Source: Chitinophaga sp. XS-30
Lineage (GTDB): Bacteria; Bacteroidota; Bacteroidia; Chitinophagales; Chitinophagaceae
DNA length: 64,000 nt
NCBI RefSeq assembly: GCF_008086345.1
Contig: NZ_CP043006.1
Coordinates: forward strand, 1-64,000
Direction of reading: 5' to 3'
The position numbers were made by a program, and so were the translations under genes. The notes under the pieces were generated by a model, which saw nothing but the letters and a program-made list of their open reading frames with translations, was not told the origin of the DNA and did not search any database. Below, piece after piece: positions 8,821 through 60,138 of the stretch (positions are counted from its first letter, which is position 1; each line of letters starts with the position of its first letter).

Positions 8821-8835
8821 TTGCCAGGCAAGTCC

Positions 8836-10549: not shown

Positions 10550-10718
10550 GACTGATAGTTTTTAAGTTGATCACAAAGAACACCGCGGGAAATGACAGCC
10601 CTATGTCAGCAGCATTTTTCTTACAATAAAAAAAGCGGTCGTTCGTCTACTTACTTAAATGCTGTCAGCGGAACGATCACTTTGTTCCGGGCTTACGAAT
10701 CAAAAAAACGGCGGTACG

Positions 10719-34282: not shown

Positions 34283-36604
34283 TTAAGTTTTTGTGATCGC
34301 TTCCTCCAGGTTATAGATGACCTGTATGGTCCTGGCCATGGCAGCGATATCCGGTGAAGGACCGTTCTTCAGCTTGTACTCGCCCACACTGATCGCTTTC
34401 TCTACCGTTTCCGGATGGGCTTTGAAATATGCATCCTGGTCCTTTTGATATTCCAGTAAAATTTCCAGTTCCTGTTTGTCAGGCCGCCGGTTAACGATCC
34501 GCATGAAAGCATCGGTAAGCGCCGTGGCGGTATTCGTTTTGCCGGATACCAGCCGGTCCGCCAACGCTACGGAAGATTCCAGCACCGTGGGGTCGTTCAT
34601 CATGATCAATGCCTGCAGCGGCGTATTGGTGCGGGAACGTTTCACTTCGCACTGGTCCCGGTTGCTGGCGTCGAATATCATCATGGACGGCGGTGGCACG
34701 GTACGTTTGATGAAGGTGTACATTCCTCTGCGGTACAGCTTGTCCCCATGGTCCTGCTTGTAAGTAGCCAGCAGTCCCCTTCCGGATGTGGCCATTTCCC
34801 ACAGGCCGGGGGGCTGGTAAGGTTTTACGCTGGGGCCGCCGATAATGGGCCGCAGCAATCCGCTGCTGGACAATACCAGGTCGCGGATCATCTCCGCGTT
34901 CATGCGTATGCGCGGGGCGTAGGAAAGATAAATGTTCTCCGGGTCCGCTTTCAATTTCTCCGGCGTGATCACGGAGGACTGGCGGTAGGTGGCGGACATG
35001 CAGATCTGTTTTACCAGCCGCTTGATGTCCCAGCCGTTTTCCCTGAAATCCACAGCCAGCCAGTCCAGCAGCTGGGGATTAACGGGCAGCTCTCCCTGCA
35101 TGCCGAAGTCCCCGACGGATTTCACGATGCCCCGCCCGAAGATCTCCTGCCACATCCTGTTCACAAAAACCCTGGCCGTCAGGGGATTGTCCTTATGGAA
35201 GAGCCAGCGCGAAAGCCCCAGCCGGTTGGGCGGGAGACTATCGGGGTATGCCATGATGGATGCCGGTGTACCAGCGTACACTTCTTCCGCATGCTGATCG
35301 TAGTTCCCACGGCTAAGCACATACGTTTTCCTGGCCGAGTCCAGGTCTTTCATCACGGATACCTGCAGCCGGTGGGTATCTGCTTTTTGCATGAAGCTGA
35401 GCACACCTTCCAGGTCTTCCCGGGTGATGTCCATCCGGGGATTCTTGGCGAAGGTTTCCTGCCCGCCTACGGTGGATTCCAGTCCTACTTCATTCACGCT
35501 GTTGAAGAAAGCGGAAAGCTGGAAAAAGTCTTTCTGCGAAACGGGATCGTATTTATGGTCGTGGCATTTTGCGCATTCGATGGTCATGCCCAGGAGGGCG
35601 GTGCCGAGGGTGTTGGTCCTGTCCACCACATATTCCACCCGGTACTCTTCATCTATTACCCCGCCTTCTTCGGTGATCTTGTGATTGCGGTTGAAGCCGG
35701 TGGCCAGCAGTTGCTCCTTCGTGGCATCGGGCATCAGATCGCCGGCCAGCTGCCAGGTGACGAAGGTGTCGTATGGCATGTTCCGGTTAAAGGCATGGAT
35801 GACCCAGTCCCGCCAGGGCCATTGGGTACGGTAGTTGTCGTCCTGGTAACCGTGGGAGTCCGCATACCGTGCCACATCCAGCCAGGGAATGGCCATTCTT
35901 TCACCGTAGGCCGGGCGGCTCAGCAGTTCATCGATCTTCTTTTCATAAATATCCGGATCGGTGCTTTTAACGAAACGGTCTATTTCTTCCGGTGTTGGCG
36001 GCAACCCGGTGATATCCAGCGATATGCGCCGCAACAGCCTTTCCTTGTCCGCTTCCTCATTGGGAGCCAGGCCATGCTGCTCCATTTTTTGCAGTACAAA
36101 ACGGTCTATTTCATTGCGGGGCCAGTCTTCATTTTTCACTTCCGGGGCCGCCGCTTTCGCGGGAGGTACAAAGGCCCAGTGTTTTTCATATTTCGCGCCC
36201 TGTTCGATCCATTTTTTGATGATGGCCACTTCCGCTACGGTAAGGGGAGGAAGGTTACTGGCGGGCGGAGGCATCAGTTGGGAGGTGTCGCTGGTACTGA
36301 CACGCAGGTAGAGTTCGGACAGCCCCGGTTTGCCGGGCACAATGGCATGGGCGCCGGGATGCTCCTGCAGCGCTTTGTAAGCCTCCGCCTCAACATCCAG
36401 CCGCAGGCCGGCCTCCCGTTTGGCAGCATCGGGACCGTGGCAGTTAAAACATTTGTCTGACAGGATAGGGCGTACCTGGAAATTATAGCTGATCAGGCCG
36501 TCACCGGCATCTTTCCGGGATGGCCCGAAGAAATGCCATGCCGTGTAAATGGCAACCGCCCCTATCAGGCAAAAAAGCATGATTATCGGTAGCCTTTTCA
36601 TCAT
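34283..36604 (-). CDS. PSD1-type cytochrome (PSCyt1-DUF1549-DUF1553)
   Basis: A 773-residue protein anchored or exported by an N-terminal hydrophobic segment (about 5-26). A planctomycete cytochrome C domain follows with CFNCH at 52-56, then DUF1549/PSCyt2 (about 165-380) containing a second heme-type motif, CAKCHDHKYDP at 344-354. DUF1553/PSD1 (about 480-730) carries NRMWQEIFGRGIVKSVGDFG and RRGMYTFIKRT. It is the first gene of the operon with DUF1501, the propeller and the membrane cytochrome. The family is expanded in Planctomycetes and thought to work in periplasmic catabolism, but no activity is established. Confidence 0.95.
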   Translation of the reverse strand: MMKRLPIIMLFCLIGAVAIYTAWHFFGPSRKDAGDGLISYNFQVRPILSDKCFNCHGPDAAKREAGLRLDVEAEAYKALQEHPGAHAIVPGKPGLSELYLRVSTSDTSQLMPPPASNLPPLTVAEVAIIKKWIEQGAKYEKHWAFVPPAKAAAPEVKNEDWPRNEIDRFVLQKMEQHGLAPNEEADKERLLRRISLDITGLPPTPEEIDRFVKSTDPDIYEKKIDELLSRPAYGERMAIPWLDVARYADSHGYQDDNYRTQWPWRDWVIHAFNRNMPYDTFVTWQLAGDLMPDATKEQLLATGFNRNHKITEEGGVIDEEYRVEYVVDRTNTLGTALLGMTIECAKCHDHKYDPVSQKDFFQLSAFFNSVNEVGLESTVGGQETFAKNPRMDITREDLEGVLSFMQKADTHRLQVSVMKDLDSARKTYVLSRGNYDQHAEEVYAGTPASIMAYPDSLPPNRLGLSRWLFHKDNPLTARVFVNRMWQEIFGRGIVKSVGDFGMQGELPVNPQLLDWLAVDFRENGWDIKRLVKQICMSATYRQSSVITPEKLKADPENIYLSYAPRIRMNAEMIRDLVLSSSGLLRPIIGGPSVKPYQPPGLWEMATSGRGLLATYKQDHGDKLYRRGMYTFIKRTVPPPSMMIFDASNRDQCEVKRSRTNTPLQALIMMNDPTVLESSVALADRLVSGKTNTATALTDAFMRIVNRRPDKQELEILLEYQKDQDAYFKAHPETVEKAISVGEYKLKNGPSPDIAAMARTIQVIYNLEEAITKT

Positions 36605-41851: not shown

Positions 41852-43126
41852 TCAGTCCCTGACCGGCATTGTCAGCGTCAGCTGTTTTTCATTCCGCAGC
41901 ATCCGCGCCGCTTCTCCCGTCAGCCAGAGATAATGGTCCGAAGGCTTTCCGTCATTGCCCACGAATGAGGTGACGGTGCTGACCGGCGGGTTATCCGTGA
42001 TCTTGAAGATGGCTGTAGCCTCGTTCACTTCATCGAACATGGCCACGTAGAGCATTTCCGCACCGGCATTCAGCACGGTGGAGATCTGCTGCCAGTAGAA
42101 ACGGCCGCCCTGCCGCGGGATGGAGCCAACGGGCTTCACATCGTCAGGGAATTCGTACCGGCTCAGGTTATGCCAGCTGAAACCGGGATACACACAGGGA
42201 ACATAGTCCACCTTGTTCTCCCGGCACCATTGCATATCGGCCAGGGTATTGTCCCGCAGGCGGTCCATATCGTTATGCAGCAGCGGTGAATAGCGTTGCA
42301 CCGTCCAGGGCAGCACAATATCGCAACGGCGGATCAGCTCATGCAGGTAAGGATCATTCACACAATCCGCCCGCAATTCCCGGAATGCCGTTGGCACGCC
42401 CAGCATAACGGCGCAATGACCATATACCGGATCATGCTTCAGAAAATCGATGAACCGCTCCAGGCCGATGTTCCGGATATTGTACGGCCGGTCCGGAAAG
42501 CCAACGCCCCAGATAGCTACCAGCGGCCGGCCATTATGATGCAGGTACGTTTGCTGACCAGCCTGGCTGGTCACTTTCAGCTCATCTACCAGGTACTTCC
42601 AGTCCGCTATCAATGCGGAGCAATCCTCTCCACTGCCCTTCAGTCCCGAGAGGTCGTACATCACGGCAATGGCGCGATTGTACTTCGATGCGGCGGAGAA
42701 GGCATTCCGCAGGATGGCGGAGGACTGCGGGTCCCGGCGCTTTGCATTGCCGAAGAACCGCTGCATGAATACGCCATCGATGTTGTACTGCTGCATCCAT
42801 TTGAAATGCAGGTCCGTTGTGCTTTCATCATGCGAGCTGAAGAAGCGCGCCTGATCTCCGTTCTTCAGCTTCCAGGGAGTGGGGTACGTTTTTTTGTACT
42901 CGCTTACATCCGGCCACATATCAATGCCGCTGCGCTGTTCGTTGCCGTATGCGAAACGGCGGGCGGAGGTGCCATCCCCTTCCGCCCGGAACCAGCCCTG
43001 GTAGCCGGCCATTATCAGTCCCTTGTAAGCCGGGTATGCGGTTTGTTTGCTGTGCTTCAGTTGCGCATGCGCTGCGGCCGTGCATAATAGCAGGCCGAGC
43101 ACAGCGATGCTGTTCCTTATATTCAT
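41852..43126 (-). CDS. GH99-like glycoside hydrolase (secreted)
   Basis: A 424-residue TIM-barrel hydrolase of the GH71/GH99-like group with a signal peptide (1-22, AHA-Q). Characteristic segments are LIMAGYQGWFRAEGDG, DLHFKWMQQYNIDGVFMQRF, IAVMYDLSG, and the C-terminal YVAMFDEVNEATAIFK. In the last, Glu366 and Glu369 have the three-residue spacing of the catalytic pair known from GH99 endo-alpha-mannosidases. GH99 enzymes cut within alpha-mannose chains by a neighbouring-group mechanism. It is the last gene of the mannan-type PUL and a paralogue of the next gene. The start at ATG 43126 begins the signal peptide. Confidence 0.8.
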   Translation of the reverse strand: MNIRNSIAVLGLLLCTAAAHAQLKHSKQTAYPAYKGLIMAGYQGWFRAEGDGTSARRFAYGNEQRSGIDMWPDVSEYKKTYPTPWKLKNGDQARFFSSHDESTTDLHFKWMQQYNIDGVFMQRFFGNAKRRDPQSSAILRNAFSAASKYNRAIAVMYDLSGLKGSGEDCSALIADWKYLVDELKVTSQAGQQTYLHHNGRPLVAIWGVGFPDRPYNIRNIGLERFIDFLKHDPVYGHCAVMLGVPTAFRELRADCVNDPYLHELIRRCDIVLPWTVQRYSPLLHNDMDRLRDNTLADMQWCRENKVDYVPCVYPGFSWHNLSRYEFPDDVKPVGSIPRQGGRFYWQQISTVLNAGAEMLYVAMFDEVNEATAIFKITDNPPVSTVTSFVGNDGKPSDHYLWLTGEAARMLRNEKQLTLTMPVRD

Positions 43127-43187
43127 GCTGCGTATTTTAATAATGCTCCGTGAATGTTCCTGCGGGCGATGATCCTGAACTGCGGCA

Positions 43188-44510
43188 TCAACGCACCGGC
43201 TTCGTGGCGGAGAACCCGCTTTCCCCACGGAACCAGCGGCCTGCCTGGCCCGTCAGCCAGAGGTAGTAATCGGAATCCAGGTCCGCTTCAATGCCGACGA
43301 ACCTTTTATCCCCATGCAAGGGCAGCTCGCCTTCTTTCGCGCATTTGTAAATAGCCGTGCCTTCATCTATTTCATCGAACATGGCTACGTAAAGCGACTT
43401 CGCCCCGGATATCTTCGCTCCCGCCACCTGTTTCCAGAGGAAATCGCCCTTCAGGCGCGGAATGGAATTGTACTGTGCGGGGTCGTTCTTCAGGTTGCCC
43501 CAGCTGAAGCCGGGGAAGGCCAGCGGCACGTAAGTAATGTTGTTGTTCCTGCACCATTGCACATCCCCCGCCAGTTCCGCCGCGGCTACATTGTTGTAGT
43601 TATCGCTGTTGTACCGGCCAACGGCCCAGGGCATGATGATATCGCTTTTTTTGATGAGCGTATGCAGGAGCGGAGAATTCTCGGTGTCATTACGCATGCT
43701 GCGCCAGTAATACGGCACACCCAGCATAACGGAGACTTTTTTCTCCGGGCCTTTCAAACGGTCCACCAGCTTGTCCACATCCGCGATGGTGTATTTCCGG
43801 TTATCATTGAAGCCCACGCCCCATATGGTCACCAGCGGCTTTTTATTATGCCGGAGATAGGTGGGATGCGTTTTATTGTCGAACAGGGAAAAGAGATTTT
43901 GCAGTTCTGCCCAATCCTGCTCCAGGTATGCCACATCCGCGGCGGTGCAGCCGCTGAGATCATACATCACGCAGATGGCGCGGTCGTATTTCTTAGCCGC
44001 CCTGAGCGCGTTTTCCAGCACTTTATTGAAATGCCGTTTGCCTTTGGGGTTGGATTCCTTTATTTCCACCACAAAGCGTTGCATGAACACCCCGTCGATA
44101 CCATAGTCCTTCATCCATTTGAAATGCAGGTCTATCGTTTCTTCGTCATATGGACTGTACATCGTCACATCCGAGCCGTCCGGGTAGGTGAATGGTGTTT
44201 TATAGGTTTTGGTGTATTCCGTCATATCCGGCCAGAAGTCCACCGTAGAGCAGCCCGGAAAAAAACCGCCGCAGCTGCCGTTGGTCAGGTGGTACCATCC
44301 GCGTTCGGAAGCATCGCCTTCGGCGGCAAACCAGCCCTGGTAACCGGCCATCACCAGCTTGTCATACGCCGTATAAAGGCAACCGGTCTCATCATACACT
44401 TTTTCCTGTACCGGGGGTTCCGGCGGGTTGGGACCGGGTTCCGCTCCGCCGCTGTTCCTGGAGCAGGCCAGCAGCAATACTATTCCGGTGGCTATTAATC
44501 CTTTCATCAT
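43188..44510 (-). CDS. GH99-like glycoside hydrolase, lipoprotein
   Basis: A 440-residue paralogue of the adjacent enzyme that carries a lipobox (LLLAC, Cys16) and a proline-rich linker (about 22-36), so it is membrane-attached, probably surface-exposed. The same landmarks occur: LVMAGYQGWFAAEGDA, DLHFKWMKDYGIDGVFMQRF, ICVMYDLSG and YVAMFDEIDEGTAIYK with Glu380 and Glu383 as the probable catalytic pair. A surface lipoprotein plus a periplasmic copy suggests that this one makes the first cut outside and the other acts after import. Divergence in other parts suggests different chain preference. Confidence 0.8.
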   Translation of the reverse strand: MMKGLIATGIVLLLACSRNSGGAEPGPNPPEPPVQEKVYDETGCLYTAYDKLVMAGYQGWFAAEGDASERGWYHLTNGSCGGFFPGCSTVDFWPDMTEYTKTYKTPFTYPDGSDVTMYSPYDEETIDLHFKWMKDYGIDGVFMQRFVVEIKESNPKGKRHFNKVLENALRAAKKYDRAICVMYDLSGCTAADVAYLEQDWAELQNLFSLFDNKTHPTYLRHNKKPLVTIWGVGFNDNRKYTIADVDKLVDRLKGPEKKVSVMLGVPYYWRSMRNDTENSPLLHTLIKKSDIIMPWAVGRYNSDNYNNVAAAELAGDVQWCRNNNITYVPLAFPGFSWGNLKNDPAQYNSIPRLKGDFLWKQVAGAKISGAKSLYVAMFDEIDEGTAIYKCAKEGELPLHGDKRFVGIEADLDSDYYLWLTGQAGRWFRGESGFSATKPVR

Positions 44511-44569: not shown

Positions 44570-45253
44570 TTAAAGATCTATTTCAACAACAGGTGCGTAG
44601 TTCAGCTTGGCCTGCGAAATATCCACTACGGCCCCTGCCCTGAAGTAATACTTCCTGCCGGCAGGCAGCTGCGAGGAATGCGCCGCCACATCCAGCGTGA
44701 GCGTGTACACCTGGTTCGGATCAGCTACGGCATTGATGTTCTGCTCCGCTGCTACGAGGCGCATCGGTTCACCCACCCGCGAATCGGAATGCACATACAA
44801 CCCTATTTTCCGGATGTTGGTACCGACAGTCTGCTGCAGTTTGAACGTGGCCGTTACAATGTTCCCGGATCTGGTGATGCTGGGTTCCAGCACGCGGATG
44901 TAGGGCGTCACCGAAAAGTCCAGCGTGGTTTTGCCCGCTATCCTTATCTCCTGCGGCTCCACACTGATAAAATTGCCGTTCATGGGCGTAACCGTGTACG
45001 TGTTTTCGAACAACAGGCTGTTCTCATACGTGCCATCGTTTTTCACGATGAGGAAGAACGGCGATACCGGATCATATCCATGTTCCAGCAACTCTATCTG
45101 TGTGCCGGAAATGATATCCTGCTCTACCAGCTGTTTGGTATCGGCATCGATGAACCGGCCGGAAAGGCCTGCGGTGGGGCCGTCGTAGTTATCCTTTTCA
45201 CAGGAAGCCAGCGCCACAGCCGCTATTAAAAAAATCGATCTTAACATTTTCAT
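44570..45253 (-). CDS. DUF3823 lipoprotein (surface glycan-binding candidate)
   Basis: A 227-residue lipoprotein (lipobox ALASC, Cys18) of the DUF3823 family, which follows SusD genes in many polysaccharide utilisation loci. The N-terminal domain (about 28-115) reads GLSGRFIDADTKQLVEQDI and VKNDGTYENSLLFENTYTVTP, a carboxypeptidase-regulatory-like fold. The C-terminal domain (about 118-227) is a beta-sandwich ending YFRAGAVVDISQAKLNYAP. It probably binds glycan beside SusD. It is 16 bases downstream of SusD. Confidence 0.88.
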   Translation of the reverse strand: MKMLRSIFLIAAVALASCEKDNYDGPTAGLSGRFIDADTKQLVEQDIISGTQIELLEHGYDPVSPFFLIVKNDGTYENSLLFENTYTVTPMNGNFISVEPQEIRIAGKTTLDFSVTPYIRVLEPSITRSGNIVTATFKLQQTVGTNIRKIGLYVHSDSRVGEPMRLVAAEQNINAVADPNQVYTLTLDVAAHSSQLPAGRKYYFRAGAVVDISQAKLNYAPVVEIDL

Positions 45254-45269: not shown

Positions 45270-47156
45270 TTAGTACTGCGGATTCTGCACAAGGCCATTG
45301 GAACCTATACCTGGAATGAAGCGGTAGTAGGACCTTTCGGTGAATGTTCTGGGATTGGAATTGGGCAGGTTCACCCGCACGAAGATGTATTTCGTTTCAG
45401 GCAATGCCCGGAGATCCTGCAGCGGCAGTATGGCATGCACCATGCGGTTGTTGAACTCGGTATGGTATTCCCTTCTGCGGATGAGGTCCCAGAACCTTTT
45501 GTTCTCGAATGCCAGCTCTACCCTTCTTTCCCGCTGTACATTCCCCACGGTCAGCGGGATGTCCACAGTATGGCCCGCGCGTTTGCGGATATCATTCAAT
45601 GCTTTTGCGGCCGCGGCAGCATCACCCGTTCCGCTTTCTATCACTGCTTCCGCGTAGTTGAGCAATATTTCGGCATAGCGGAATTCCATGAAATCCGTAG
45701 TGCTCTGGTTCCATCCGGGCGTGATGGGATTGAGCTGGTTCATGAACTTCTTGAAGGAAAAGCCCGTGCGGGTGTTGTTGCCGCCGTAGGTATCGAAGCC
45801 GGAGTATTGTGTGGTGCTGGCGGCGCCGTAAGTATAGTAGGTGGTGCCGTTGATGGTGATGTTGTCATTCGTGCGGATCACGGCGCTGCCGTCAGGCCTT
45901 ACATAACCGGCCTGAATGATGATGGGTGTTCCCTTCCAGTTGGTTTGCGGGAGGATGGCGGTGCCCCACAGGCGGGCATCTTTTCCCTCGAATATCTCGT
46001 TCGGTGAATCGAAGCGGATGTAATTGAGGGAAGGATTATAGCCGTTGTAGTCGTTTATGTTCCCTTCCACGGTGGTCACCACCGGCGCGCTCACGCCGGG
46101 ATTGTCATACCGCTCGTAGGTATCCACGAGGTCCAGCGTGGGGTTCATGCGGCCGGGATGCGGCCAGCCATTGGCCGTTTGCGCCGGCTGGAACCAGATA
46201 TCGTAGTTGTGGCCAAGATTGTTGCCGGGCAGGGTGTAGCCTTTGATCATGATGGCCTCGTTACCCGCGGTGTTGGGGTTCTGGAACAGCAGGCGGTAGT
46301 TCTCCGCCGCTTCTTCCGGGCTGGCGGGGCTGGGCATATACAGGCCAAACTTGCCGGAGGAGATGATCGCTTCGTTTGCCAGGATGCACTGGTTATAATA
46401 TCCTGCGGCGGCGGATGCATCCAGGCCCACAAGGCCCTGGGTAGCGGCATTGCCGGAAAGCGGCGCGCGGTTCCAGAATTTGGCGATGGATGCGGCATGC
46501 AGGGCGGCCCTGGATTTCAGCGCATAGGCCATCCATTTGTTGGCGCGGCGGCCGGTGCCTTCACCCAGATTATCGATGGCCTGATCGCACAGTTCCATTA
46601 CATAGTCCCAGGTTTCTTTTTCCGTACTGCGCGGCACTTTCAGACTTTCCACATCGCCGGTGTACTGCTGCGTGGCTTTAATGAGGGATACGCCGCCATA
46701 CCTTTTGGCCAGCCCGAAATAGGCGAAGGCTTTGATGAAGGCGCTTTCGCCGGTGAGGGCGCGGCGTTCCTCTTCGAGGATATTGAGGTTGGGGATCGCA
46801 TCGGCCAGGAGGTTCACGTCCCGGACCAGTTTATATCCCTGGTCCCACCAGTGAAAATCCCCATCGCCCAGGAAGTCGCCAAACTCGGTATGGGCCGCTT
46901 CATCCGTGATCATGGCCGGAACGAATCCGCCATTGTTGGGATCGCCGCCGTTCTGATTGAAGCCACCCCTGAAATATGCGAAATCTTCCGTGGGCAGCTG
47001 AAAATACAGGTTTGCCATGTACAGCTTCACGCCTTCGGGATCGCTGAAGAGATCTTCCGCGCGTATCTTGTCCGTCGGCTGCAGCTCCAGCACGGAGTTG
47101 CAGCTAAACAGCAGCATCCCGGCAAACAACATCATTAATTTCTTATAGTAATACAT
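45270..47156 (-). CDS. SusD/RagB outer-membrane lipoprotein
   Basis: A 628-residue glycan-binding lipoprotein (LLFSC, Cys19). Family signatures are AFIKAFAYFGLAKRYGGVSL, FRYAEILLNYAEA, and VQRERRVELAFENKRFWDLIR, with the C-terminal LVQNPQY. It is larger than the SusD at 23081, with extra loops in the middle (about 330-450) that may shape a branched-glycan site. It follows SusC by 11 bases. Confidence 0.95.
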   Translation of the reverse strand: MYYYKKLMMLFAGMLLFSCNSVLELQPTDKIRAEDLFSDPEGVKLYMANLYFQLPTEDFAYFRGGFNQNGGDPNNGGFVPAMITDEAAHTEFGDFLGDGDFHWWDQGYKLVRDVNLLADAIPNLNILEEERRALTGESAFIKAFAYFGLAKRYGGVSLIKATQQYTGDVESLKVPRSTEKETWDYVMELCDQAIDNLGEGTGRRANKWMAYALKSRAALHAASIAKFWNRAPLSGNAATQGLVGLDASAAAGYYNQCILANEAIISSGKFGLYMPSPASPEEAAENYRLLFQNPNTAGNEAIMIKGYTLPGNNLGHNYDIWFQPAQTANGWPHPGRMNPTLDLVDTYERYDNPGVSAPVVTTVEGNINDYNGYNPSLNYIRFDSPNEIFEGKDARLWGTAILPQTNWKGTPIIIQAGYVRPDGSAVIRTNDNITINGTTYYTYGAASTTQYSGFDTYGGNNTRTGFSFKKFMNQLNPITPGWNQSTTDFMEFRYAEILLNYAEAVIESGTGDAAAAAKALNDIRKRAGHTVDIPLTVGNVQRERRVELAFENKRFWDLIRRREYHTEFNNRMVHAILPLQDLRALPETKYIFVRVNLPNSNPRTFTERSYYRFIPGIGSNGLVQNPQY

Positions 47157-47167: not shown

Positions 47168-50100
47168 TTAGAAGTTTACGTTGAGGCCAAAGTTGAAGGT
47201 CTTCATGAGGGGATAGTTAAATCCCGCATTGAACAAGCCTTCCAGCCTTTCCGGGTCAAATGCCTTTACAAAAGGATCAGCGAAAGTGAGCAGGTTGAAG
47301 CCGCTGGCAAACACACGTATCCTTTTGATGCCGGTAATGCTGTAGAGTTCCGGCGCTACGGTATATCCCAGCTCCAGGCTCTTCAGCCGGGCATACGAAG
47401 CATCCTTGCGCCATACGGAACTTTCCGCATACATCTTGCCCACATCGCCATTGAAACGGGAAGCAGGCCATTTCCCCGCCACCCATTCGCTGTTGGGATC
47501 ATAAGGGTCCGCCTTATGCCAGCGGTCGAAGAAATAGGCGGGCGTATTGCCGCGGAAAGCCAGCACCTCCGCATACACTTCGCTGAAACGCACGGTGTAC
47601 ATGGCTGCGCCCTGCCAGAGCATGTTGAGGTCAAATCCTTTGTAAGACATGTTCAGGTTAAGGCCGTAGTTCATCTTTGGATTTTTGCCCGCGGGGTTCT
47701 GGTTGTTATTCGTGCCGTTCGCGCCGAGGAACATCGGCAGCATATCCCGGTCGTCCACAACGCCGTCATTATTCACGTCCGCATATTTGAAGTCACCGGG
47801 CAGCTCGCGGATATTGGCCTGCGCACCGTTCTGTATGGGATATTTCGATATCTCTTCGAGGGACTGGAACTGGCCCAGGTACGTGTACGCCCAAACGATA
47901 TCATTATACCGGTTGGCCGCGCCGTTGCGCCATTTCTCCCAGCTGTTCGTAAACGGGGTGCTTTCCACGTAGAGGTTCATCATACGGGAGAAGTTGAAGT
48001 TGGCGGATACGTTGTAGCTGAACTCCCCGATCCTGTTCTGATGCCCGATGGTGAAATCGAAACCCTTCACCCGGTCGCTGTTGAGGTTTTCCTGCGGAAG
48101 CGTGCCGCCAAAAGTATTGGGCAGGGAAACGTTGCGGAAGGCCAGCGTGCCTTCACGGTCGCGTTTATACACATCAAACTCGAAAGTGAATTTGTTCTTC
48201 CACAGACCGATGTCTATGCCGATGTCCGTCACCTTTGATTTTACCCAGCTCAGCTGCTGGTTCACGATAGCCGGGGAAGCCGCGCCATTGGTGAGTGAGC
48301 CGTTATCAAATTCGTAGGTCCCGCCACCGCCGGTGGAGAAGCCTGCAATATACTGGAAGGGATTGCCGGCATCCTCACCCACAAGGCCATACGAAGCCCG
48401 GATCTTCAGGTTGCTGATCACGGGAAGGTTCTCCCTGATGAAATTCTCCTCCGAAAGCCGCCATCCGCCGGATATCACGGGGTAGAACGACCATCTTTTG
48501 TCAGGATGATACCGGTAGGAGCCATCCTGCCGGAAGGCAAAATCTATCAGGTATTTGCTTTTGTAGTCGTAGCTCAGGCGGCCTACGTAAGACAGGTTGG
48601 CGGTCTGTGTTTCAATACCGCTGTTCTCCATCTTCGCCGTACCGGCGGAGTTCACCTGGTCGTTCGTATAAAAATCGTAGAAGCGCCGGAGGTACCCGTC
48701 CCGCACCCAGAACTGCTGCTGCTCCACGACCATCGTAGCGCCTACATTGTGGGCTTTTGCGAACGTATGGCTATAGTTCAATTGCGCCTGCAGGGTCACG
48801 CGGTTATTGTTGGAATAGTTGTTGCCGATGCTGGCGGTGCCCACCCTTTGCGGCTGGGCAATGTATTCATCCCCCACATAGGTGTACAGCTTGTAGCCTT
48901 TCTGCAGGTCTTTATTGGAATAGTTGTTCATGTCGTAAGCCGCCATGCCGCGCAGGGTCAGCCCCTCCACGAAAGGAAAGGTATAGGTCAATGCCACGGA
49001 AGACTGCACATTGCGGTTGATGCTTTCGTTGTAACCGGTCACACCCGCCTGCGAAAGCGTTACGGGGTTCTGGTTGGACGGGGCCACCACCGCCGGATAG
49101 GAAGGATTATTATTCGCATACACTTTATCCGTTGGCAGCGTTACACGGGTGCCTTTGAAGATGTTGAAGAAATTTTCGCCCGGCACCATTCTCACATCAT
49201 ACCTTCCGGCGATGAACACTTCAGCCTTCAGGTTCTGATGCAGCATGGTGGTGATATTGGAGCGCAGGTTGAAGCGCTTGTAATACATATCGTTGCTTTT
49301 CAGCAGGCCCAGCTCATCCGCGTAGCCGAAGCTGAAGAAGTACTGCGTTTTGTCCGTGCCGCCGGAAGCGGAGATATTGTGCTGTTGCTGCATGGTGGAG
49401 TTCTTCATGGCAGCGGCGTACCAGTCCGTGCTCTCATAACCCGGAGCGCCATCGATATACTTCTGCAGCTCATCTTTGGGGAGGAAAGGTGTTCCCCTGC
49501 CGAAGATATCCGCGTCATTGCGCATCTGCATCCACTCCGATGCATTGGCCATGCGCGGCACATCTGTAGGTTTCATGATGCCCACAACGCCGGTGTAGTT
49601 GAAATCCACCTGGCCGGCCTGGCCTTTTTTGGTGGTCACGATCACTACGCCGTTGGAAGCACGCAGACCATAAATCGCCGCGGAAGCATCTTTCAGGAAC
49701 GAGATGCTTTCAATATCATCCGGGTTGAGGCGCTGGAATTCCGAAGCGCCGTCCCTGGCAATGCCGTCGATCACGAACAGCGGTGTGCCGAAACCCCGGA
49801 TATTGATCATGTTGTCGAAAGTGCCCGGTTCGCCGCCCAGCTGGCGGATCTGCAGGCCCGCCACCTTACCCTGGAGCTTTTGCGCCATGCTGATATTGGT
49901 AGTGGTCTGAATATCCTTTGCGGTGATATTGCTTACCGCGCCGGTGAGCGTTTCTTTTCTGCGGGTGCCGTACCCCACCACCACTACGGCGCTCAGCTGC
50001 TCTTCCGAGGAAGTGAGCGCTATATCGATAGTGCTGCGGCCATTGATATCTTCCGTAAGCGTGGTCATGCCCAGGAAGGCGAAGGTAAGCCGGGTGGCCT

Positions 50101-50308
50101 GTTGCGGAACGGTGATGGAATATTCACCGCGTGTATTGGTGGTAACGCCGGTCCTTTTACCGGCCGCATCCAGGGTAAAGACGCTGACGCCGGGGAGCGC
50201 CGTGCCGTCTTTTGCGTCCGTAACTTTCCCGCTGATGACTTTTTGCTGTGCCAGCAGGCAGAGCGGGACAGTGCATAGCAGGATCACGAGGAAATAAACT
50301 TTCTTCAT
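47168..50308 (-). CDS. SusC/RagA TonB-dependent receptor
   Basis: A 1046-residue outer-membrane transporter of the PUL. It has a signal peptide (1-20, LLA-Q), a carboxypeptidase-regulatory-like domain (about 23-100), VVVGYGT ending at 115, a plug to about 225 and a beta-barrel to the C-terminal NFGLNVNF. Unlike the receptor at 19646 it has no STN domain, so it should not signal through FecR; control falls to the divergent regulator at 52969. It pairs with the SusD that follows. Confidence 0.95.
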   Translation of the reverse strand: MKKVYFLVILLCTVPLCLLAQQKVISGKVTDAKDGTALPGVSVFTLDAAGKRTGVTTNTRGEYSITVPQQATRLTFAFLGMTTLTEDINGRSTIDIALTSSEEQLSAVVVVGYGTRRKETLTGAVSNITAKDIQTTTNISMAQKLQGKVAGLQIRQLGGEPGTFDNMINIRGFGTPLFVIDGIARDGASEFQRLNPDDIESISFLKDASAAIYGLRASNGVVIVTTKKGQAGQVDFNYTGVVGIMKPTDVPRMANASEWMQMRNDADIFGRGTPFLPKDELQKYIDGAPGYESTDWYAAAMKNSTMQQQHNISASGGTDKTQYFFSFGYADELGLLKSNDMYYKRFNLRSNITTMLHQNLKAEVFIAGRYDVRMVPGENFFNIFKGTRVTLPTDKVYANNNPSYPAVVAPSNQNPVTLSQAGVTGYNESINRNVQSSVALTYTFPFVEGLTLRGMAAYDMNNYSNKDLQKGYKLYTYVGDEYIAQPQRVGTASIGNNYSNNNRVTLQAQLNYSHTFAKAHNVGATMVVEQQQFWVRDGYLRRFYDFYTNDQVNSAGTAKMENSGIETQTANLSYVGRLSYDYKSKYLIDFAFRQDGSYRYHPDKRWSFYPVISGGWRLSEENFIRENLPVISNLKIRASYGLVGEDAGNPFQYIAGFSTGGGGTYEFDNGSLTNGAASPAIVNQQLSWVKSKVTDIGIDIGLWKNKFTFEFDVYKRDREGTLAFRNVSLPNTFGGTLPQENLNSDRVKGFDFTIGHQNRIGEFSYNVSANFNFSRMMNLYVESTPFTNSWEKWRNGAANRYNDIVWAYTYLGQFQSLEEISKYPIQNGAQANIRELPGDFKYADVNNDGVVDDRDMLPMFLGANGTNNNQNPAGKNPKMNYGLNLNMSYKGFDLNMLWQGAAMYTVRFSEVYAEVLAFRGNTPAYFFDRWHKADPYDPNSEWVAGKWPASRFNGDVGKMYAESSVWRKDASYARLKSLELGYTVAPELYSITGIKRIRVFASGFNLLTFADPFVKAFDPERLEGLFNAGFNYPLMKTFNFGLNVNF

Positions 50309-50431: not shown

Positions 50432-52672
50432 TCATTCAGCATCCGGACGGCCCCAGGCCTTGTCCGGCAAAGGCCCCATTTCCAGCTCCAGGTGCCCGCC
50501 GGCTATCAGTTGCTCGTGTGTGAACCAGGGCGTATGGAGCGTTTCGCCATTGAACTTTGCCTGTTGTATATACTTGTTGACGGATGAACAGTTGTTGGCG
50601 GTAATGCGGAACACCTTGCCGTTGGGGAGCTGCAAACTCACCTTGCTGAACACAGGGCTGGTGATGGTGTACACGGGCAGGCCGGGCGTAACGGGATAGA
50701 AGCCCATGGCGGTGAACACCACGAAAGCCGTCATACCGCCGCCGTCCTCATCCCCGGGAATACCGAAAACATTGTCCGCAAACCAGGTATCCAGCAGAAA
50801 GCGGGTGCGCTTCTGCGTTTTCCAGGGAGCATCGGTGAAATTGTAGAGATAGGGAATGTGAAAGCTCGGTTCATTGCCCATGGAGAACTGGCCGACGAGG
50901 CCGGTTGCATCGGGGAATTTGCTCCAGAATTCATACCTGGAACGGTCCAGCCCCTCGCGGAACAACTGGTCCAGCTTCTTTTCAAAAGCCTTGCGGCCGC
51001 CCATCAGGGCGATCAGTCCGGGTATATCCTGCTGCACCTGCCACATATAGGTGTAACCGTTATTCTCGTCGTAATAATCGCGGCCGCCCATGCCGCCATC
51101 GAATTTCGGGTCTATCATCACCCAGTTGCCCTTGTCGTCTTTCGGCATGAAGAGCTGTTTCTCCGGATGCCAGAGGTGGCGGTAATTGCGGCCCCTGGCG
51201 GCGAACAATGCCGTATCCGCCGTTTTGCCCAGGTCTTTCGCCATTTCTCCCAGGGCCCAGTCGTCATAACTATTGCCAAGCGTTACGGCAACAGATTGTC
51301 TTTTTTCAAAACCATGCACCCGGTCTATGGTTTCTTTTTCACCGGGATGCAGTGCGGGGAAATAGCCATGCTGGTAATAATATTCATCCAGCACTGTTTT
51401 CTCTCCATTCCGCCAGGGTAGCATGGTAGCTTCGGTGGCGTTTTTGAACATGCCTTCGTAGGCTTTCTGCACATCGAAGTTGCGCAGCCCCTTCCGGTAA
51501 GCGTCGAGGAAAACGATGGAAGAATGGAAACCGTTCATGCAGGCATGGTCGCCGAACAGCACCGGGAAGGTGGGCATCCAGCCGCTTTGTTCGTACATGC
51601 GCACGTAGGATTGCAGCATGTCTTCCTCGGCGGCGGGGTCGAGGATCATCCGCAGCGGATGATGGGCGAGGTAAGTATCCCACGACCAGTCATCCACATA
51701 GAACGGACGATTATCCCGGTTGACCTTTTTATTATATCCGCTGTAATACTGTCCGTCTTCCGTAATGTCCACCATGCGCTCATAACACCGGTACAGGGCC
51801 GTGTAGAACGAGCGGCGCTGCGCGGCCGTGCCGCCTTCCACATTGATCCGGGACATCACTTTCTCCCAGGCTTTCCTGCCGTTCTCCGAAACTTCCTCAA
51901 AGGAACGGCCCATCACTTCCGCCTCGAAATTCTTCCGCGCCTGCTCCGGACTGACATAACTGATGGCATACCTCAGCTCCACATCCTTCACCGCTGCCGG
52001 GAAGGTGATGAAAGCCCTGGCCCCCTGCCCCGAAACCGCCTGCTGCGGTCTGATATTGCCGCCTTCCAGCACACCCGGCTTCCCGGCCTGGCTGAAAACG
52101 CCATACATATATACCTTTACTTCGCCCTGGTACGTTTCCATGCCCCGCAGCGCATTGCCCGGCAGAAATTCCCAACCGGCCTCACCGGGATTGTACACGC
52201 CCAGCAATATGGACTTGTCCCCCGCATCTTCCGGGAAACGGAAACGGAAGATCCCGGTTTTCTTTCCCACGGTAAAATCCACCGTCACGCCTTCATCGAT
52301 CAGCAGGGTGGAATAATACCAGGGGCGGTTGACCTCCAGGTCATGGTCCCAGGTCATCCGGGAGCGCCAGCTTTCCACGCTGACCGGCAGGATAGACGGT
52401 TTGATGGAAAAAACCTGGCCCAGGCGATGGGATACCACATTCAGGGGGAAACTGGAGATCTGGTCGTCCAGGAAATCTTTCCGCTGCGGTGTAAAACGGA
52501 CCATCTGGTTCGGCAGCTGTACCGTGGGGCGGGTAGGCTCCAGCAGGTGGCCGACCGACCCGATCGTGGGGTCCACATCATTCAGATTAGACCTTTCTAC
52601 AGATCTTGCCGCATTACAGGCGATGCCCAACATCCAGACAGATAAAAAAAATAAAAGCGATTGTTTCTTCAT
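50432..52672 (-). CDS. GH92 alpha-mannosidase
   Basis: A 746-residue calcium-dependent exo-alpha-mannosidase of family GH92. The N-terminal beta-sandwich starts with DVDPTIGSVGHLLEPTRPTVQLPNQM-type sequence (about 33-58). The catalytic domain holds the hallmarks MGNEPSFHIPYLYN (Glu601, the probable acid) and GDEDGGGMTAF (640-643 onward, with the Asp pair acting as base). It begins with a signal sequence and possible lipobox (Cys19). It is the first gene of the operon, 123 bases before SusC. It would trim alpha-mannose residues released or exposed by the GH99-like enzymes. Confidence 0.93.
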   Translation of the reverse strand: MKKQSLLFFLSVWMLGIACNAARSVERSNLNDVDPTIGSVGHLLEPTRPTVQLPNQMVRFTPQRKDFLDDQISSFPLNVVSHRLGQVFSIKPSILPVSVESWRSRMTWDHDLEVNRPWYYSTLLIDEGVTVDFTVGKKTGIFRFRFPEDAGDKSILLGVYNPGEAGWEFLPGNALRGMETYQGEVKVYMYGVFSQAGKPGVLEGGNIRPQQAVSGQGARAFITFPAAVKDVELRYAISYVSPEQARKNFEAEVMGRSFEEVSENGRKAWEKVMSRINVEGGTAAQRRSFYTALYRCYERMVDITEDGQYYSGYNKKVNRDNRPFYVDDWSWDTYLAHHPLRMILDPAAEEDMLQSYVRMYEQSGWMPTFPVLFGDHACMNGFHSSIVFLDAYRKGLRNFDVQKAYEGMFKNATEATMLPWRNGEKTVLDEYYYQHGYFPALHPGEKETIDRVHGFEKRQSVAVTLGNSYDDWALGEMAKDLGKTADTALFAARGRNYRHLWHPEKQLFMPKDDKGNWVMIDPKFDGGMGGRDYYDENNGYTYMWQVQQDIPGLIALMGGRKAFEKKLDQLFREGLDRSRYEFWSKFPDATGLVGQFSMGNEPSFHIPYLYNFTDAPWKTQKRTRFLLDTWFADNVFGIPGDEDGGGMTAFVVFTAMGFYPVTPGLPVYTITSPVFSKVSLQLPNGKVFRITANNCSSVNKYIQQAKFNGETLHTPWFTHEQLIAGGHLELEMGPLPDKAWGRPDAE

Positions 52673-52968
52673 AACCGGACAATAACGTATTGGAATATGG
52701 ATGCAATAAACCCGGATGCCGCTAACAAAAGCATTAATGAAAACACTAACCGGGAAATTAATTTTATTAATTTTTTCAATGTCATGATTATCAAAATAGT
52801 AGAAAGGAATTAATTTTCTAATTTGAATAAGGAAAAAGCAGGGATTTTAAGTGTAAGCCTTACGTATAACTGAAGCCGGAACAGGCTTTGGCGGGGTGGA
52901 ATGCGCCCGGCGGTTAGTTTTACATCAGAAATTAAGTACTTTGTAGCTCATTGGATAATAAGCCTCTC
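52673..52968. promoter_or_regulatory. Divergent promoter region between PUL and its regulator
   Basis: About 300 AT-rich bases without a gene. On the plus side TACTTTG (one base short of the -7 consensus) occurs near 52937-52943, just before the regulator. No exact TAnnTTTG faces the GH92 gene. The binding site of the regulator is expected here. Confidence 0.4.
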
Positions 52969-55470
52969 ATGGGGAGATATTTTTACTGTTTACTGTATAT
53001 TATATTAACTGTTCAGTTCGCAAACGGCCAATCTCACGGGTTGGCATTTTCCAGTCACGAGGTTGTTCCGGAAAAAAGGACTTCGCTGGACCTGACGCCG
53101 ACGGACCCGGTATGCCTGGGAGACGTTACAGAAATTTCCTTTGACCTGATGCTGCGGCCTAACCTGGAAACCTATTTCGGGTACGTTATGCGGTTGCTGA
53201 CCAGCGACCACCGGAATATCGACCTGGTATATAACCAGCGGCTGGCTACCTTCAATTTTGTGATCAGGGAGGTCATTACCGGCAGTTTTGTGATCGATAC
53301 GGCGCAGATATTCGGGAAATGGAGCCGGTTCAGGCTGCTTTTCGACGGCAAGCGGCAGGAAGCATCCTTTTATTATAATAATGAACTGATCGCCAAAGGC
53401 CACATCGGGCTGGACAAGCAGCCCTGCGCCCGGATATTCTTCGGCGCCAACAGTTTTGAAGGTTTTCAGACGCTGGATGTTCCCCCTATGCGGATAAAGG
53501 ATATCCGCATAAAGGCAGACGGCAAGCTGATCCATTACTATCCGCTTTCGGAAAGCAGTGGCACAACGGCGCAGGATGAGGTCACCCGGCAGGCCGCCCG
53601 GGTAAAGAACCCGGTATGGATCAAGCCGCGGCACCAGCATTGGGAACAGGTAGCGGCCTTTCAGACAAAAGGGGCACCGAGCACGGCGTTCGACAAAAAA
53701 CAGGAAGTCCTCTATATTGTTACGGTGGATTCGCTGTACCGCCTGTCACTGAAGAACATGACCCTGACCGGCGAGCCTGCGGCCCGCAGCAGGGACATAC
53801 TGCCCGCCGGGAACCAGTCCGTGTACAGCAACACGCAAAACAGGCTGTACAATTTTTATATCGATGAAAAGCAGGTCAGCACCTATGACACCGCCAGCCG
53901 CTCCTGGGATTCCGCTTTCAGTTCCATGGAGCTGACCGAGTACTGGCAGGCCAACAAGTTCCTCTCGCCGCAGGATTCCGCTTTATATATCATGTGCGGC
54001 TACGGCCAGCTGCAATACAAGAACCTGGTACAGCGCTATCATTTCCCCACCCGGCAGTGGACGCTGGTGCCGGTAAAAGGCGATACGCTCATGCCGCGTT
54101 ACCTGGCCGCACTGGGCCTCAATGAAACGAACGATACGGCTTTTATCATGGGTGGCTATGGCAGCAACACAGGCGATCAGGCCGTTAATCCGAAATATAA
54201 TTACGACCTGATGGCCTACAGCATCGGTGACAGCACTTTCCATCTGCGCTATCACCAGCCGGAGCCGCCACGCCAGTTCTGCTTCGCGAACAGCCTGGTG
54301 ATAGACCCTGCGGGGCAGGACTATTACACGCTGATCTACCCGAACGATCAGTTCAATTCCTCCCTGCAGCTGATCCGCGGATCATTGCATCAGCCGGGTT
54401 ACCAGCTGATCGGCGATACCATTCCTTACGCTTTTTATGATGTCCGCTCCTTTGCCGATCTTTTTTATTCCCCGGTCAGTCAGAAACTGGTGGCCGTTAC
54501 GTTATACCATTCCAAAGAAAATATTGCCAGCGTGAAGGTGTATACGCTGGACTTCCCGCCCAATCCCGCGGAGCCGGCAACAGCGGCCGCAGCCGGCGGC
54601 CGGGGCTACTGGATGTACCTGCTCGCCGGCATCGTGCTGTTAGCAGGCATTTTGTTATGGCGGAAAAAGCGCAGGCCCGCGGAGACCGTGCCGGACAATG
54701 CAGCTTTCCCGGAGGAAGAGACGGAAAAACATCCGGAGACTTCCGCCATTTACCTGTTCGGCCAGTTCGAGGTGTTCGACAAGGAAGGGCAGGATATCAC
54801 CAAACTGTTCACCCCACTGCTGAAAGAGCTTTTCCTGCTGCTGGTGGTGCATTCCATGAAAGACGGCAAAGGCATCGCCTCCGAAGAGCTGTATGACATC
54901 CTGTGGAACGACAAGTCCCCGAAGGATGCGCGCAACAACTTTTCGGTGAACATCGTCAAACTGAAAGCCATCCTGGAAAAGATCGGCGGGTTCCATATCG
55001 GCAGGGAATCCGGGAAGTGGAAGCTGGATGTACTGGAAGAGCATATTTATGTGGACTACCAGCATTTCATCCGCCTGCTGCACGATCATCCGCATGGTAT
55101 CGATCATGCCTTTGTACATGGATTGCTGGAGATCGTGCACCGCGGCGCGCTGCTGCGCACAGTCCATTATGAGTGGCTGGACCCGTTGAAGTTCGATACA
55201 TCCGTACAGGTGATCGACCTGCTGCTGAAATACGCATCCCGGGCGGACCTGCATGCGGAAGCGGAGTTTATTGTCAGGATAGCCAATGCTATTTTCCAGT
55301 TCGACAACCTGAACGAAGAAGCGCTGGCCTGGAAAAGCAAAGCGCTCATCCACCTGGGAAGGCACAGCATGGCAAAAGAAACCTACGGGAAATTCGCCAA
55401 GGAATACCGCGAGAGCTACGGGCAGGATTTTGGCAAATCGCTGGTGGAGATCACGCAGCAGGCCGGATGA
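52969..55470 (+). CDS. Membrane-spanning SARP-like regulator with lectin-like and kelch domains
   Basis: An 833-residue one-protein sensor and regulator. Outside the inner membrane, after a signal peptide (about 1-21), are a concanavalin/LamG-like domain (about 25-195) and kelch-type repeats (about 215-530, for example FIMGGYGSNTGDQA, LYIMCGYGQLQ). One membrane span follows (about 548-566), capped by RKKRR. The cytoplasm holds an OmpR-like winged helix (about 594-690, IYLFGQFEVFDKEGQDITK, then LYDILWNDKSPKDARNNFSV) and a bacterial transcriptional activator (BTAD/TPR-like) domain to the end. It is divergent from the mannan PUL and probably switches it on. The start is ATG 52969; a TTG lies 18 bases upstream. 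Confidence 0.82.
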   Translation: MGRYFYCLLYIILTVQFANGQSHGLAFSSHEVVPEKRTSLDLTPTDPVCLGDVTEISFDLMLRPNLETYFGYVMRLLTSDHRNIDLVYNQRLATFNFVIREVITGSFVIDTAQIFGKWSRFRLLFDGKRQEASFYYNNELIAKGHIGLDKQPCARIFFGANSFEGFQTLDVPPMRIKDIRIKADGKLIHYYPLSESSGTTAQDEVTRQAARVKNPVWIKPRHQHWEQVAAFQTKGAPSTAFDKKQEVLYIVTVDSLYRLSLKNMTLTGEPAARSRDILPAGNQSVYSNTQNRLYNFYIDEKQVSTYDTASRSWDSAFSSMELTEYWQANKFLSPQDSALYIMCGYGQLQYKNLVQRYHFPTRQWTLVPVKGDTLMPRYLAALGLNETNDTAFIMGGYGSNTGDQAVNPKYNYDLMAYSIGDSTFHLRYHQPEPPRQFCFANSLVIDPAGQDYYTLIYPNDQFNSSLQLIRGSLHQPGYQLIGDTIPYAFYDVRSFADLFYSPVSQKLVAVTLYHSKENIASVKVYTLDFPPNPAEPATAAAAGGRGYWMYLLAGIVLLAGILLWRKKRRPAETVPDNAAFPEEETEKHPETSAIYLFGQFEVFDKEGQDITKLFTPLLKELFLLLVVHSMKDGKGIASEELYDILWNDKSPKDARNNFSVNIVKLKAILEKIGGFHIGRESGKWKLDVLEEHIYVDYQHFIRLLHDHPHGIDHAFVHGLLEIVHRGALLRTVHYEWLDPLKFDTSVQVIDLLLKYASRADLHAEAEFIVRIANAIFQFDNLNEEALAWKSKALIHLGRHSMAKETYGKFAKEYRESYGQDFGKSLVEITQQAG

Positions 55471-58239: not shown

Positions 58240-60138
58240 ATGAAAAACACAAACTCAAAGCGCGGCAGCATGCTGATGTCATGCCGGCACCCATTCGTTG
58301 TAATCCTGGCGGCAGCGCTGACCCTTGCGGGATGCCGGGTAAAAGAGCTGAATGACCTGGAAAAGCCCCTGCGGCCGGACGCCCTCCTCTCCTCCGTATC
58401 CGCACAGGCATTACCACCGCTGAACGAGATCAAGGTAATGTCCTACAACGTCAGGAAGACCATTGCCGGTGATCCTTTTACGCTGGACCAGCGCAAAAGC
58501 TACATCATGCAGATCATTCTCGATGAGGATGTGGACATCTTCGGCATCCAGGAACTGGCGGAAAATGATATGGAAGCCTGGTTCAATGCAGAACTGGCAG
58601 CGGCCGGGTATGGCGTGTACAACTCTGGTCCGGCTAACGGCTCCCCCAAATCCATCTGGTACAAGAACTCCCGCTTCACCCGTACCAATGCCGGCTGGTT
58701 CACCATGAAAACGCCGGACTACCGCAGCGGCAAATGGGTGGTGCTGCAGGACAAGCTGGTGCCTTCCAACAGCTATTTCGTCTGCAACAGCCACTGGACC
58801 ACCGAAAGCTCCGCGCAAAGGAATATGAATGCGGACAGTGTGATCGATGCGATCTCCACCAACAACACCCAGAACCTCCCGGTTATTTGTCTTGGTGATT
58901 TTAATGCCGTTCCCGGCACTTCCGAGATCAACAAATTGAAAGGCGCCTTCAGTATGGTAGATGCGCTGTTCGAGGGTTCCGGCGAGCCAACTTTCCATGG
59001 CTGGGACGGCATCGGCAACAGCAAGCTGGATTACATCATGAGCACCCGGGACCTGGCCTTCACCAGCTCCGATGTGATCACCACCAGCTTCAGCGTTGGC
59101 GGGCAAACCCTCTGGCCATCCGACCACTGGGCCATTGTAGCCTCCTACGTTCCCGCTATATTCGGCGGGCCGCATACCGACGCGAACGGCAAAAGCGCCA
59201 GCGCCAACACGAATTTCTATTTCGCTGATATCAACGGTGACGGGAAAAACGACAAGATCTACTGGAACCGTACGTTTGACGATGGGAAAACAAGGGTGTT
59301 CCTCTCCAATGGCAACGGCACCTTTGCCTCCGGCGCAGTGACCCATGCGGCAGGGGCCTCCACTGTATCCACTACCCGGTACTATTTCGCGGATGTAGAC
59401 GGCGACGGCAAAGCAGACCAGATCCGCTGGGACCCCACACAAAACTCCGGCCGCACACAGGTGTACCTCGCCACAACGAACGGCAATTTCAGCGCCACCG
59501 CCGTCAGCAATCCGGAAGGCACCAGCCAGGGTTCCACCACCATATTCCATTTCGCGGATGTGAACGGCGATGGCAAGGCGGACAAGATCTACTGGAACTC
59601 CACCTTCGACAATGGCCATACCCGCGTGTACCTGGCTACTTCCGGCGGCAGCTTCAGCGGGTCCGTTGTGTCAGGCGCAGAGGGAGCCAGCACCACGGCC
59701 GGCACCACATTCTATTATGCCGACGTGAACGGAGACGGCAGGGCCGATAAAATACTCTGGCATCCCTCGCTGAACTCCGGCAAAACCATGGTGTACCTGT
59801 CCGACGGCGATGGTACGTTTACGGCCTCTTCCGCTTTCAGCAATTCCGGCGCCACCAGCGGCCTGAGCAGCACAAAATTCTATTTCGCGGACGTGAACGG
59901 CGATGGCCGGGCGGACAAGATCTACTGGAACCCCGGCAATTATCTGGGAGAGCCCAAGATCTACTATTCCGAAACAACGAATGCCTTTAAAGGTCCCATC
60001 TATTCACTGAGAGGTACTTCCCAGAGCGCCAATACGATCTACTATTACTCAGACATCAGCGGCGATGGCAAAGCGGACAAGATCCGCTGGAATTATGGCG
60101 AGTACACCGGGGAGCTGAGAAACTATTTCGGTAAATAA
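58240..60138 (+). CDS. EEP-family phosphodiesterase/nuclease lipoprotein with FG-GAP repeats
   Basis: A 632-residue lipoprotein (TLAGC, Cys32). Residues about 62-305 form an endonuclease/exonuclease/phosphatase domain with the usual landmarks: VMSYNVR, FGIQEL (metal-binding Glu), NSHWTTE, LGDFNAVPG (Asp and Asn), KLDYIMS and WPSDHWAIVA (catalytic His). About 315-632 hold six FG-GAP/VCBS-type repeats, each with a calcium loop such as DINGDGKNDKIYW or DVDGDGKADQIRW. The repeats probably form a propeller that binds DNA or another polymer at the cell surface. The likely task is extracellular nucleic-acid or phosphodiester cleavage. Confidence 0.88.
   Translation: MKNTNSKRGSMLMSCRHPFVVILAAALTLAGCRVKELNDLEKPLRPDALLSSVSAQALPPLNEIKVMSYNVRKTIAGDPFTLDQRKSYIMQIILDEDVDIFGIQELAENDMEAWFNAELAAAGYGVYNSGPANGSPKSIWYKNSRFTRTNAGWFTMKTPDYRSGKWVVLQDKLVPSNSYFVCNSHWTTESSAQRNMNADSVIDAISTNNTQNLPVICLGDFNAVPGTSEINKLKGAFSMVDALFEGSGEPTFHGWDGIGNSKLDYIMSTRDLAFTSSDVITTSFSVGGQTLWPSDHWAIVASYVPAIFGGPHTDANGKSASANTNFYFADINGDGKNDKIYWNRTFDDGKTRVFLSNGNGTFASGAVTHAAGASTVSTTRYYFADVDGDGKADQIRWDPTQNSGRTQVYLATTNGNFSATAVSNPEGTSQGSTTIFHFADVNGDGKADKIYWNSTFDNGHTRVYLATSGGSFSGSVVSGAEGASTTAGTTFYYADVNGDGRADKILWHPSLNSGKTMVYLSDGDGTFTASSAFSNSGATSGLSSTKFYFADVNGDGRADKIYWNPGNYLGEPKIYYSETTNAFKGPIYSLRGTSQSANTIYYYSDISGDGKADKIRWNYGEYTGELRNYFGK

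Follow-up and report, generated by a model that had tools for sequence, protein, structure and literature searches.

The window analysed here is a 64,000-nucleotide stretch of the genome of Chitinophaga sp. XS-30 (contig NZ_CP043006.1, positions 1 to 64,000). At 52969–55470 on its plus strand lies an intact open reading frame (ORF), from an ATG at 52969 to a stop at 55470, coding for a protein of 833 residues that we propose, with a probability of about 75%, to be a one-component transmembrane transcription activator of the adjoining polysaccharide utilization locus (PUL). Its logic would be that of SusR-like regulators, with a SARP module used for DNA recognition. A single polypeptide is predicted to cross the membrane, joining a sensor-like periplasmic half to a cytoplasmic half with the predicted fold of a SARP activator, as the original prediction, made from the DNA letters alone, had supposed. 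Also in line with that prediction, the gene is divergent from a PUL, a minus-strand operon coding for GH92, SusC, SusD, DUF3823 and enzyme-like proteins; the GH92 gene starts at 52672, and the gap of 296 bp holds a conserved array of direct repeats. The regulator gene is present in a single copy in the 6.18-Mb genome, and, among named relatives, Chitinophaga cymbidii comes closest at this locus (77% identity).

Predicted structure of the regulator

Single-sequence searches with Pfam and NCBIfam failed to identify the interior half of the protein; in Pfam, the BTAD match (E 0.09, 13.5 bits against a cut-off of 22.1) is not significant, and among the 53 full-length homologues BTAD and Trans_reg_C reach an E-value of 0.002 in one protein each. 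Fold comparison was therefore needed. The AlphaFold (AF2) model of this half has a pLDDT of 92.5 and matches AfsR, as present in its transcription initiation complex, and EmbR with a Foldseek E-value of 1e-6, a TM score of 0.6 and Z scores of 14–15.4 over 232–235 residues, covering both domains. Chains of these two proteins were the only ones found at E<1e-3; the rows below them match one domain only, the winged helix, and lie well below. Sequence identity to AfsR and EmbR is only 15–20%, with sequence similarity near zero. A profile built from the 53 homologues matches a winged helix of the PhoB family (5dcl) with an E-value of 0.002, with the recognition helix aligned. The interior half is thus SARP-like as a statement about its predicted fold, in which winged helix and BTAD form one unit; Pfam does not place its sequence in the family above the cut-off. 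In this form the SARP-like interior of the original prediction stands.

The exterior half ends in a beta-propeller. Propeller models of Pfam match the protein below their gathering cut-off (best E-value 6e-9), and the predicted fold of residues 220 to 533, approximately, is a six-bladed propeller closed by four-stranded blades, which superimposes on the kelch propellers of LZTR1 and KLHDC2 with Z scores of 21 (for LZTR1, Z 21.2, with 271 residues aligned and an rmsd of 3.5). The kelch repeats read from the sequence beforehand are therefore confirmed by the predicted propeller, despite the sub-threshold Pfam matches. The preceding LamG-like region is less clear. Its model is all-beta, with moderate and uneven confidence (blocks of pLDDT of about 30 to 90), Pfam finds no match to it in the window protein, Laminin_G_3 is matched by five of the 53 homologues (best E-value 5e-6) and the best solved structure found with the profile of the domain is a pentraxin, at a weak E-value of 0.11. 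Of the LamG-like domain originally announced, the all-beta domain is retained, while its assignment as LamG is tentative.

Between the two halves, nearly all full-length homologues agree in the position and the charge of the membrane span (around residues 547–564) with the basic RKKRR stretch after it, from which we predict the exterior half to be periplasmic. As used in the original prediction, "exterior" has to be read as the periplasm, the regulator being predicted to be an inner-membrane protein, and not as the cell surface.

Candidate operator and promoter

Alignment of the divergent intergenic region from seven Chitinophaga orthologues reveals a strongly conserved block containing four TTAA/TTAG repeats, spaced by exactly 12 bp. 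The region named beforehand as the promoter to be bound, 52673–52968, thus holds conserved direct repeats, in an array such as SARP and OmpR winged helices bind. The four-copy TTAR pattern is absent from 100 shuffled versions of the window and has one match in the complete genome, at 52722–52761; as a backward control pattern is likewise matched once, the weight rests on location and conservation and not on the count. The three-copy pattern occurs at four positions in the genome, two of them at 52722–52761, versus 18 for the backward control.

Arrays of at least three TTAR repeats were then counted at the 56 loci that contain the regulator, seven of which are the discovery set. Within 600 bp of the regulator, 34 arrays have a period of 12 and 10 a period of 11, while the other periods from 8 to 16 yield at most one each; 30 of the 56 loci have an array in these 600-bp flanks, versus 0.64±0.82 in shuffles. 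Allowing spacers of 7–8 nucleotides and taking in intergenic DNA within 9 kb, arrays are found at 43 of the 56 loci, versus 4.2±2.0 (maximum 10) in shuffled sequences, and control spacer pairs sharing neither the 7- nor the 8-nucleotide length give arrays in 3–11 loci. The choice between 11 and 12 bp follows the tree of the regulators, requiring four changes where shuffling gives a mean of 11.5 and a minimum of 7 (300 shuffles). The spacing can also vary between paralogues within a genome, as in G164, where L058 has a spacing of 12 bp and the degenerate array of L082 one of 11 bp.

Most arrays are oriented toward the first PUL gene and located 16–230 bp upstream of it, in divergent and co-oriented operons alike. 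In the 29 tabulated sites, the end of the array is followed by a spacer of about 11 nucleotides, mostly rich in C and G, and then by a box with the consensus TTWWTTG. The primary sigma factor of Bacteroidota reads TAnnTTTG at −7 (PMC7366714), and the boxes are poor matches to it.

Genome G536 has two further intergenic four-copy arrays away from the regulator (L133, 3516–3555, and L134, 3412–3451), near genes that are not obviously part of a PUL. The one at L133 is upstream of an ORF of 167 residues with an N-terminal hydrophobic stretch, which may be a second target. An extra array in G613 was rejected as a regulon site, as it lies inside a gene and looks like a chance match.

Distribution and linkage to polysaccharide utilization loci

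A search covering 246 Chitinophagaceae genomes and 395 genomes of the phylum gave homologues in 25 and 11, respectively, XS-30 included. They occur in Chitinophagaceae, Spirosoma and several other families of Bacteroidota; eight named loci were found as well (six Chitinophaga, two Spirosoma). All 53 full-length homologues share one order of signal peptide, LamG/kelch half, membrane span and SARP half. When the interior half is used for a profile search for distant relatives, there is a sharp gap between E-values of 1e-51 and 1e-16. The relatives below the gap were rejected as family members, those that could be read being soluble SARP-like proteins or response-regulator fusions; the gap and the nature of these outliers indicate that the transmembrane family is a distinct group. 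These soluble and response-regulator-fused relatives in other Bacteroidota also qualify the premise that SARPs are normally actinobacterial: SARP-like proteins are not confined to Actinobacteria.

A survey of the association with PULs across Bacteroidota, as the original prediction had called for, bears the association out. SusC or SusD is encoded within 10 kb of the regulator at 42 of the 56 loci and within 3 kb at 32; the immediate neighbour is SusC, SusD or GH92, again at 32. A random gene would be within 3 kb of SusC/SusD in about 15–27% of cases, which would make the enrichment two- to fourfold among loci that are related; this is a rough estimate from SusD densities and not a formal test. 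The enzymes of these PULs vary (GH92, GH3, GH43, GH95, GH99 and GDSL esterases). The XS-30 genome has 126 SusD-like matches, a very high PUL density, and three other genomes have 80–104.

Proposed mechanism and alternatives

In the mechanism we propose, the LamG-like and kelch half would sense, in the periplasm, an oligosaccharide imported by SusC/SusD, which is the most economical guess for the signal, or otherwise another PUL-dependent signal. The signal would cross the single membrane span to the cytoplasmic SARP module (OmpR-type winged helix and BTAD). Several protomers would then sit side by side on the TTAR-N8 direct repeats at 52722–52761, in place of a −33 element, and the array-bound regulator would bring RNA polymerase to the −7-like box (52704–52710), turning on the GH92-susC-susD operon. 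The SARPs of Streptomyces likewise bind 11-bp direct repeats overlapping the −35 element (PMC10936776, PMC10972967), as side-by-side protomers that contact region 4 of the sigma factor in the case of AfsR (PMC10936776), and some SARP sites consist of three heptameric repeats (PMC10972967). As the TTAR array is at a SARP-like place relative to the downstream box, a membrane-tethered SARP activator is the best explanation.

Several observations weigh against this explanation. The background density of PULs is high in Chitinophaga, and linkage over 10 kb is, on its own, a weak argument. Some distant homologues (for example L092, L096 and L097) have no SusC/SusD nearby, genome G474 has no SusD at all and homologues in families with few or no SusD genes show no linkage; for some members, then, the signal could be something other than a PUL glycan. 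The loci are related, so the counts are not independent. Spacings of 11 bp and mixed spacings were introduced after inspection of the data, and 13 of the 56 loci do not have an exact array; three of these (L065, L068 and L082) carry a degenerate one, and a position weight matrix scan of the loci lacking an exact array found none in L035, L060, L075 and L088.

The alternative that survives best, which we consider possible but not probable, is that the exterior half reads a protein partner, for example the occupancy of SusC/SusD or a periplasmic enzyme, and not the glycan itself. By fold, the propeller indeed comes closest to protein-binding kelch domains, those of LZTR1 and KLHDC2, and the LamG-type lectin assignment is tentative; nevertheless, the PUL enzymes differ from locus to locus (GH92, GH43, GH3, GH95, GH99), and each PUL has a diverged regulator to itself, in keeping with ligand specificity though no proof of it.

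Transfer of the signal by regulated proteolysis appears unlikely. Here, binding of a ligand or partner outside would lead to cleavage and free the SARP half as a soluble activator, with protein and operator unchanged. Two homologues are split into separate ORFs (L098 of G371, 8402–10959, 485 and 364 residues; L089 of G228, 8483–11106, 642 and 245 residues), and a third, of 423 residues, contains the interior half only (L088 of G231, 8957–10228), suggesting that the halves may act apart. However, these ORFs could be the result of frameshifts or assembly errors, the two halves are as a rule fused, with a membrane span, and a site adjoining the regulator gene fits tethered binding; neither a protease site nor a gene for a cognate protease came to light, though no search was aimed at them.

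It is improbable that the regulator is a repressor that blocks the PUL promoter until released by the glycan. With the array directly before the presumed −7 box, the bound protein could overlap polymerase contacts, but the SARP fold with BTAD and the repeats replacing the −33 element fit sigma adaptation as in AfsR (PMC10936776), and −7 boxes that match TAnnTTTG poorly are expected of activator-dependent promoters. Finally, while binding of the regulator to the array is a prediction, we find it very improbable that the repeats serve another factor, or PUL promoters in general, and have the regulator gene only as a neighbour, given that the XS-30 genome has a single four-copy array despite its 126 SusD genes, that G086 and G216 have one each, beside the regulator gene, and G066 has it at one place, beside a regulator paralogue, and that the array spacing tracks the regulator tree and can differ between paralogous loci of one genome.

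If the tethered activator is correct, a known activator fold has been relocated behind a membrane receptor. Such proteins likely make up a further class of PUL control, besides the SusR-like, hybrid two-component and extracytoplasmic function (ECF) sigma/anti-sigma types: tethered SARPs whose periplasmic kelch/LamG receptor would itself place the SARP protomers on a TTAR array that replaces the −33 element, in an 11- or 12-bp register set by the regulator's clade. Environmental Bacteroidota such as Chitinophaga can hold over a hundred SusD genes, most of which have no assigned mode of control. With a family of transmembrane SARPs and an operator that can be read in the sequence, one gene and one promoter would form the switch, and its targets could be predicted with nothing but the DNA; for engineering, sensor and promoter would make a compact pair.

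Genes of the locus

The coordinates of the regulator, its predicted domains, the promoter elements and the operon are collected in Table 1.

Table 1. Features of the regulator locus, in coordinates of the window.
Feature	Position	Strand	Basis
Predicted transmembrane SARP-like regulator, 833 aa	52969–55470	+	ORF and translation; 53 full-length homologues
Signal peptide, aa 1–20, ending ...FANG/Q	52969–53028	+	Sequence; N-terminal hydrophobic stretch in many homologues
LamG/concanavalin-like domain, aa 22–222, weakly supported	53032–53634	+	Laminin_G_3 in 5/53 homologues; all-beta model
Kelch beta-propeller, aa ~223–533	53635–54567	+	Pfam kelch E 6e-9, below cut-off; Z 21 to LZTR1/KLHDC2
Single membrane span, aa 547–564	54607–54660	+	Hydropathy; kept across homologues
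RKKRR stop-transfer, aa 565–569	54661–54675	+	Sequence; Arg/Lys-rich in nearly all homologues
OmpR-type winged helix, aa ~594–690, recognition helix in KDARNNFSVNIVKLKAILEK	54748–55038	+	Fold matches AfsR/EmbR and PhoB/SaeR; profile match 5dcl, E 0.002
BTAD-like helical domain, aa ~696–817	55054–55419	+	Two-domain fold match to AfsR/EmbR
Candidate operator, four direct repeats TTAA/TTAG/TTAA/TTAG, 12 bp start to start, toward GH92	52722–52761	−	Conserved in 7 Chitinophaga orthologues
−7-like box TTTATTG, 11 nt past last repeat	52704–52710	−	Near-fixed distance in 29 tabulated sites
GH92 (exo-mannosidase-type family), first gene of PUL operon	50432–52672	−	Pfam GH92 E 7e-155
SusC-like TonB-dependent transporter	47168–50308	−	Pfam Plug, CarbopepD_reg_2
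SusD-like lipoprotein	45270–47156	−	Pfam SusD_RagB E 3e-35
DUF3823 lipoprotein	44570–45253	−	Pfam
Glycoside-hydrolase-like lipoprotein	43188–44510	−	No significant Pfam match; weak GHL6, E 0.013

The last of these genes has a counterpart of equal size and position in the Chitinophaga loci L031, L032, L033, L034, L037 and L038. In XS-30 it is adjacent and related to a second enzyme-like gene on the same strand (41852–43228), the motif MAGYQGWF being common to both; we presume that the two may be GH71/GH99-like. Although GH92 is part of the operon, Pfam gives no significant family for its two enzyme-like neighbours, and we therefore do not commit to mannan as the substrate. Elsewhere in the window, the gene at 58240–60138 (plus strand) codes for an Endonuclease/exonuclease/phosphatase domain fused to FG-GAP repeats, and that at 34283–36604 (minus strand) for a large protein that has a CxxCH motif like those of c-type cytochromes and may resemble planctomycete-type cytochrome proteins.

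Comparison with known regulators

PULs of Bacteroidota are usually assigned to three types of regulator. We found no description of a SARP- or kelch-type PUL regulator in the open-access literature searched, outside which lie most subscription journals and preprints. ECF sigma and anti-sigma systems exert transmembrane control over susCD operons (PMC3878776); Pfam detects neither a sigma factor nor an anti-sigma domain in the 833-residue protein, for which direct promoter binding is predicted instead. Hybrid two-component systems, also linked to PULs, fuse a large periplasmic sensor through the membrane to a DNA-binding output (PMC3878776). The protein described here likewise appears to be a transmembrane sensor-output fusion, but with no histidine kinase, receiver or AraC domain detected by Pfam. 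Regulators of the ToxR/CadC type are one-component proteins with a membrane-anchored winged helix of the OmpR type, located N-terminal to the span and without BTAD. The order is different in XS-30, where the winged helix follows the span, is C-terminal and is accompanied by BTAD.

SusR of B. thetaiotaomicron is an inner-membrane protein encoded next to susCD, with a periplasmic sensor and a cytoplasmic C-terminal DNA-binding domain (PMC3878776). The XS-30 protein shares this logic and, by prediction, this topology, but in its parts it departs from SusR as described. The direct-repeat motif with a long spacer of SusR-like regulators is not seen here, the TTAR repeats being contiguous at 11 or 12 bp.

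A classic SARP is soluble, with the SARP domain at its N-terminus, while the XS-30 protein has a signal peptide, a single span and a C-terminal module, placed behind that span and a periplasmic LamG/kelch half. SARPs are tied to antibiotic clusters and this regulator to glycan uptake genes, and the repeats in the XS-30 clade are spaced by 12 bp, not 11 bp. In the arrangement of an OmpR-type winged helix followed by BTAD, with a fold match over the full length of the module, it nevertheless resembles the SARP activators AfsR, EmbR and those of the ActII-ORF4/RedD type, and its predicted operator, of direct repeats at 11 or 12 bp, is likewise just upstream of the downstream box of the promoter.
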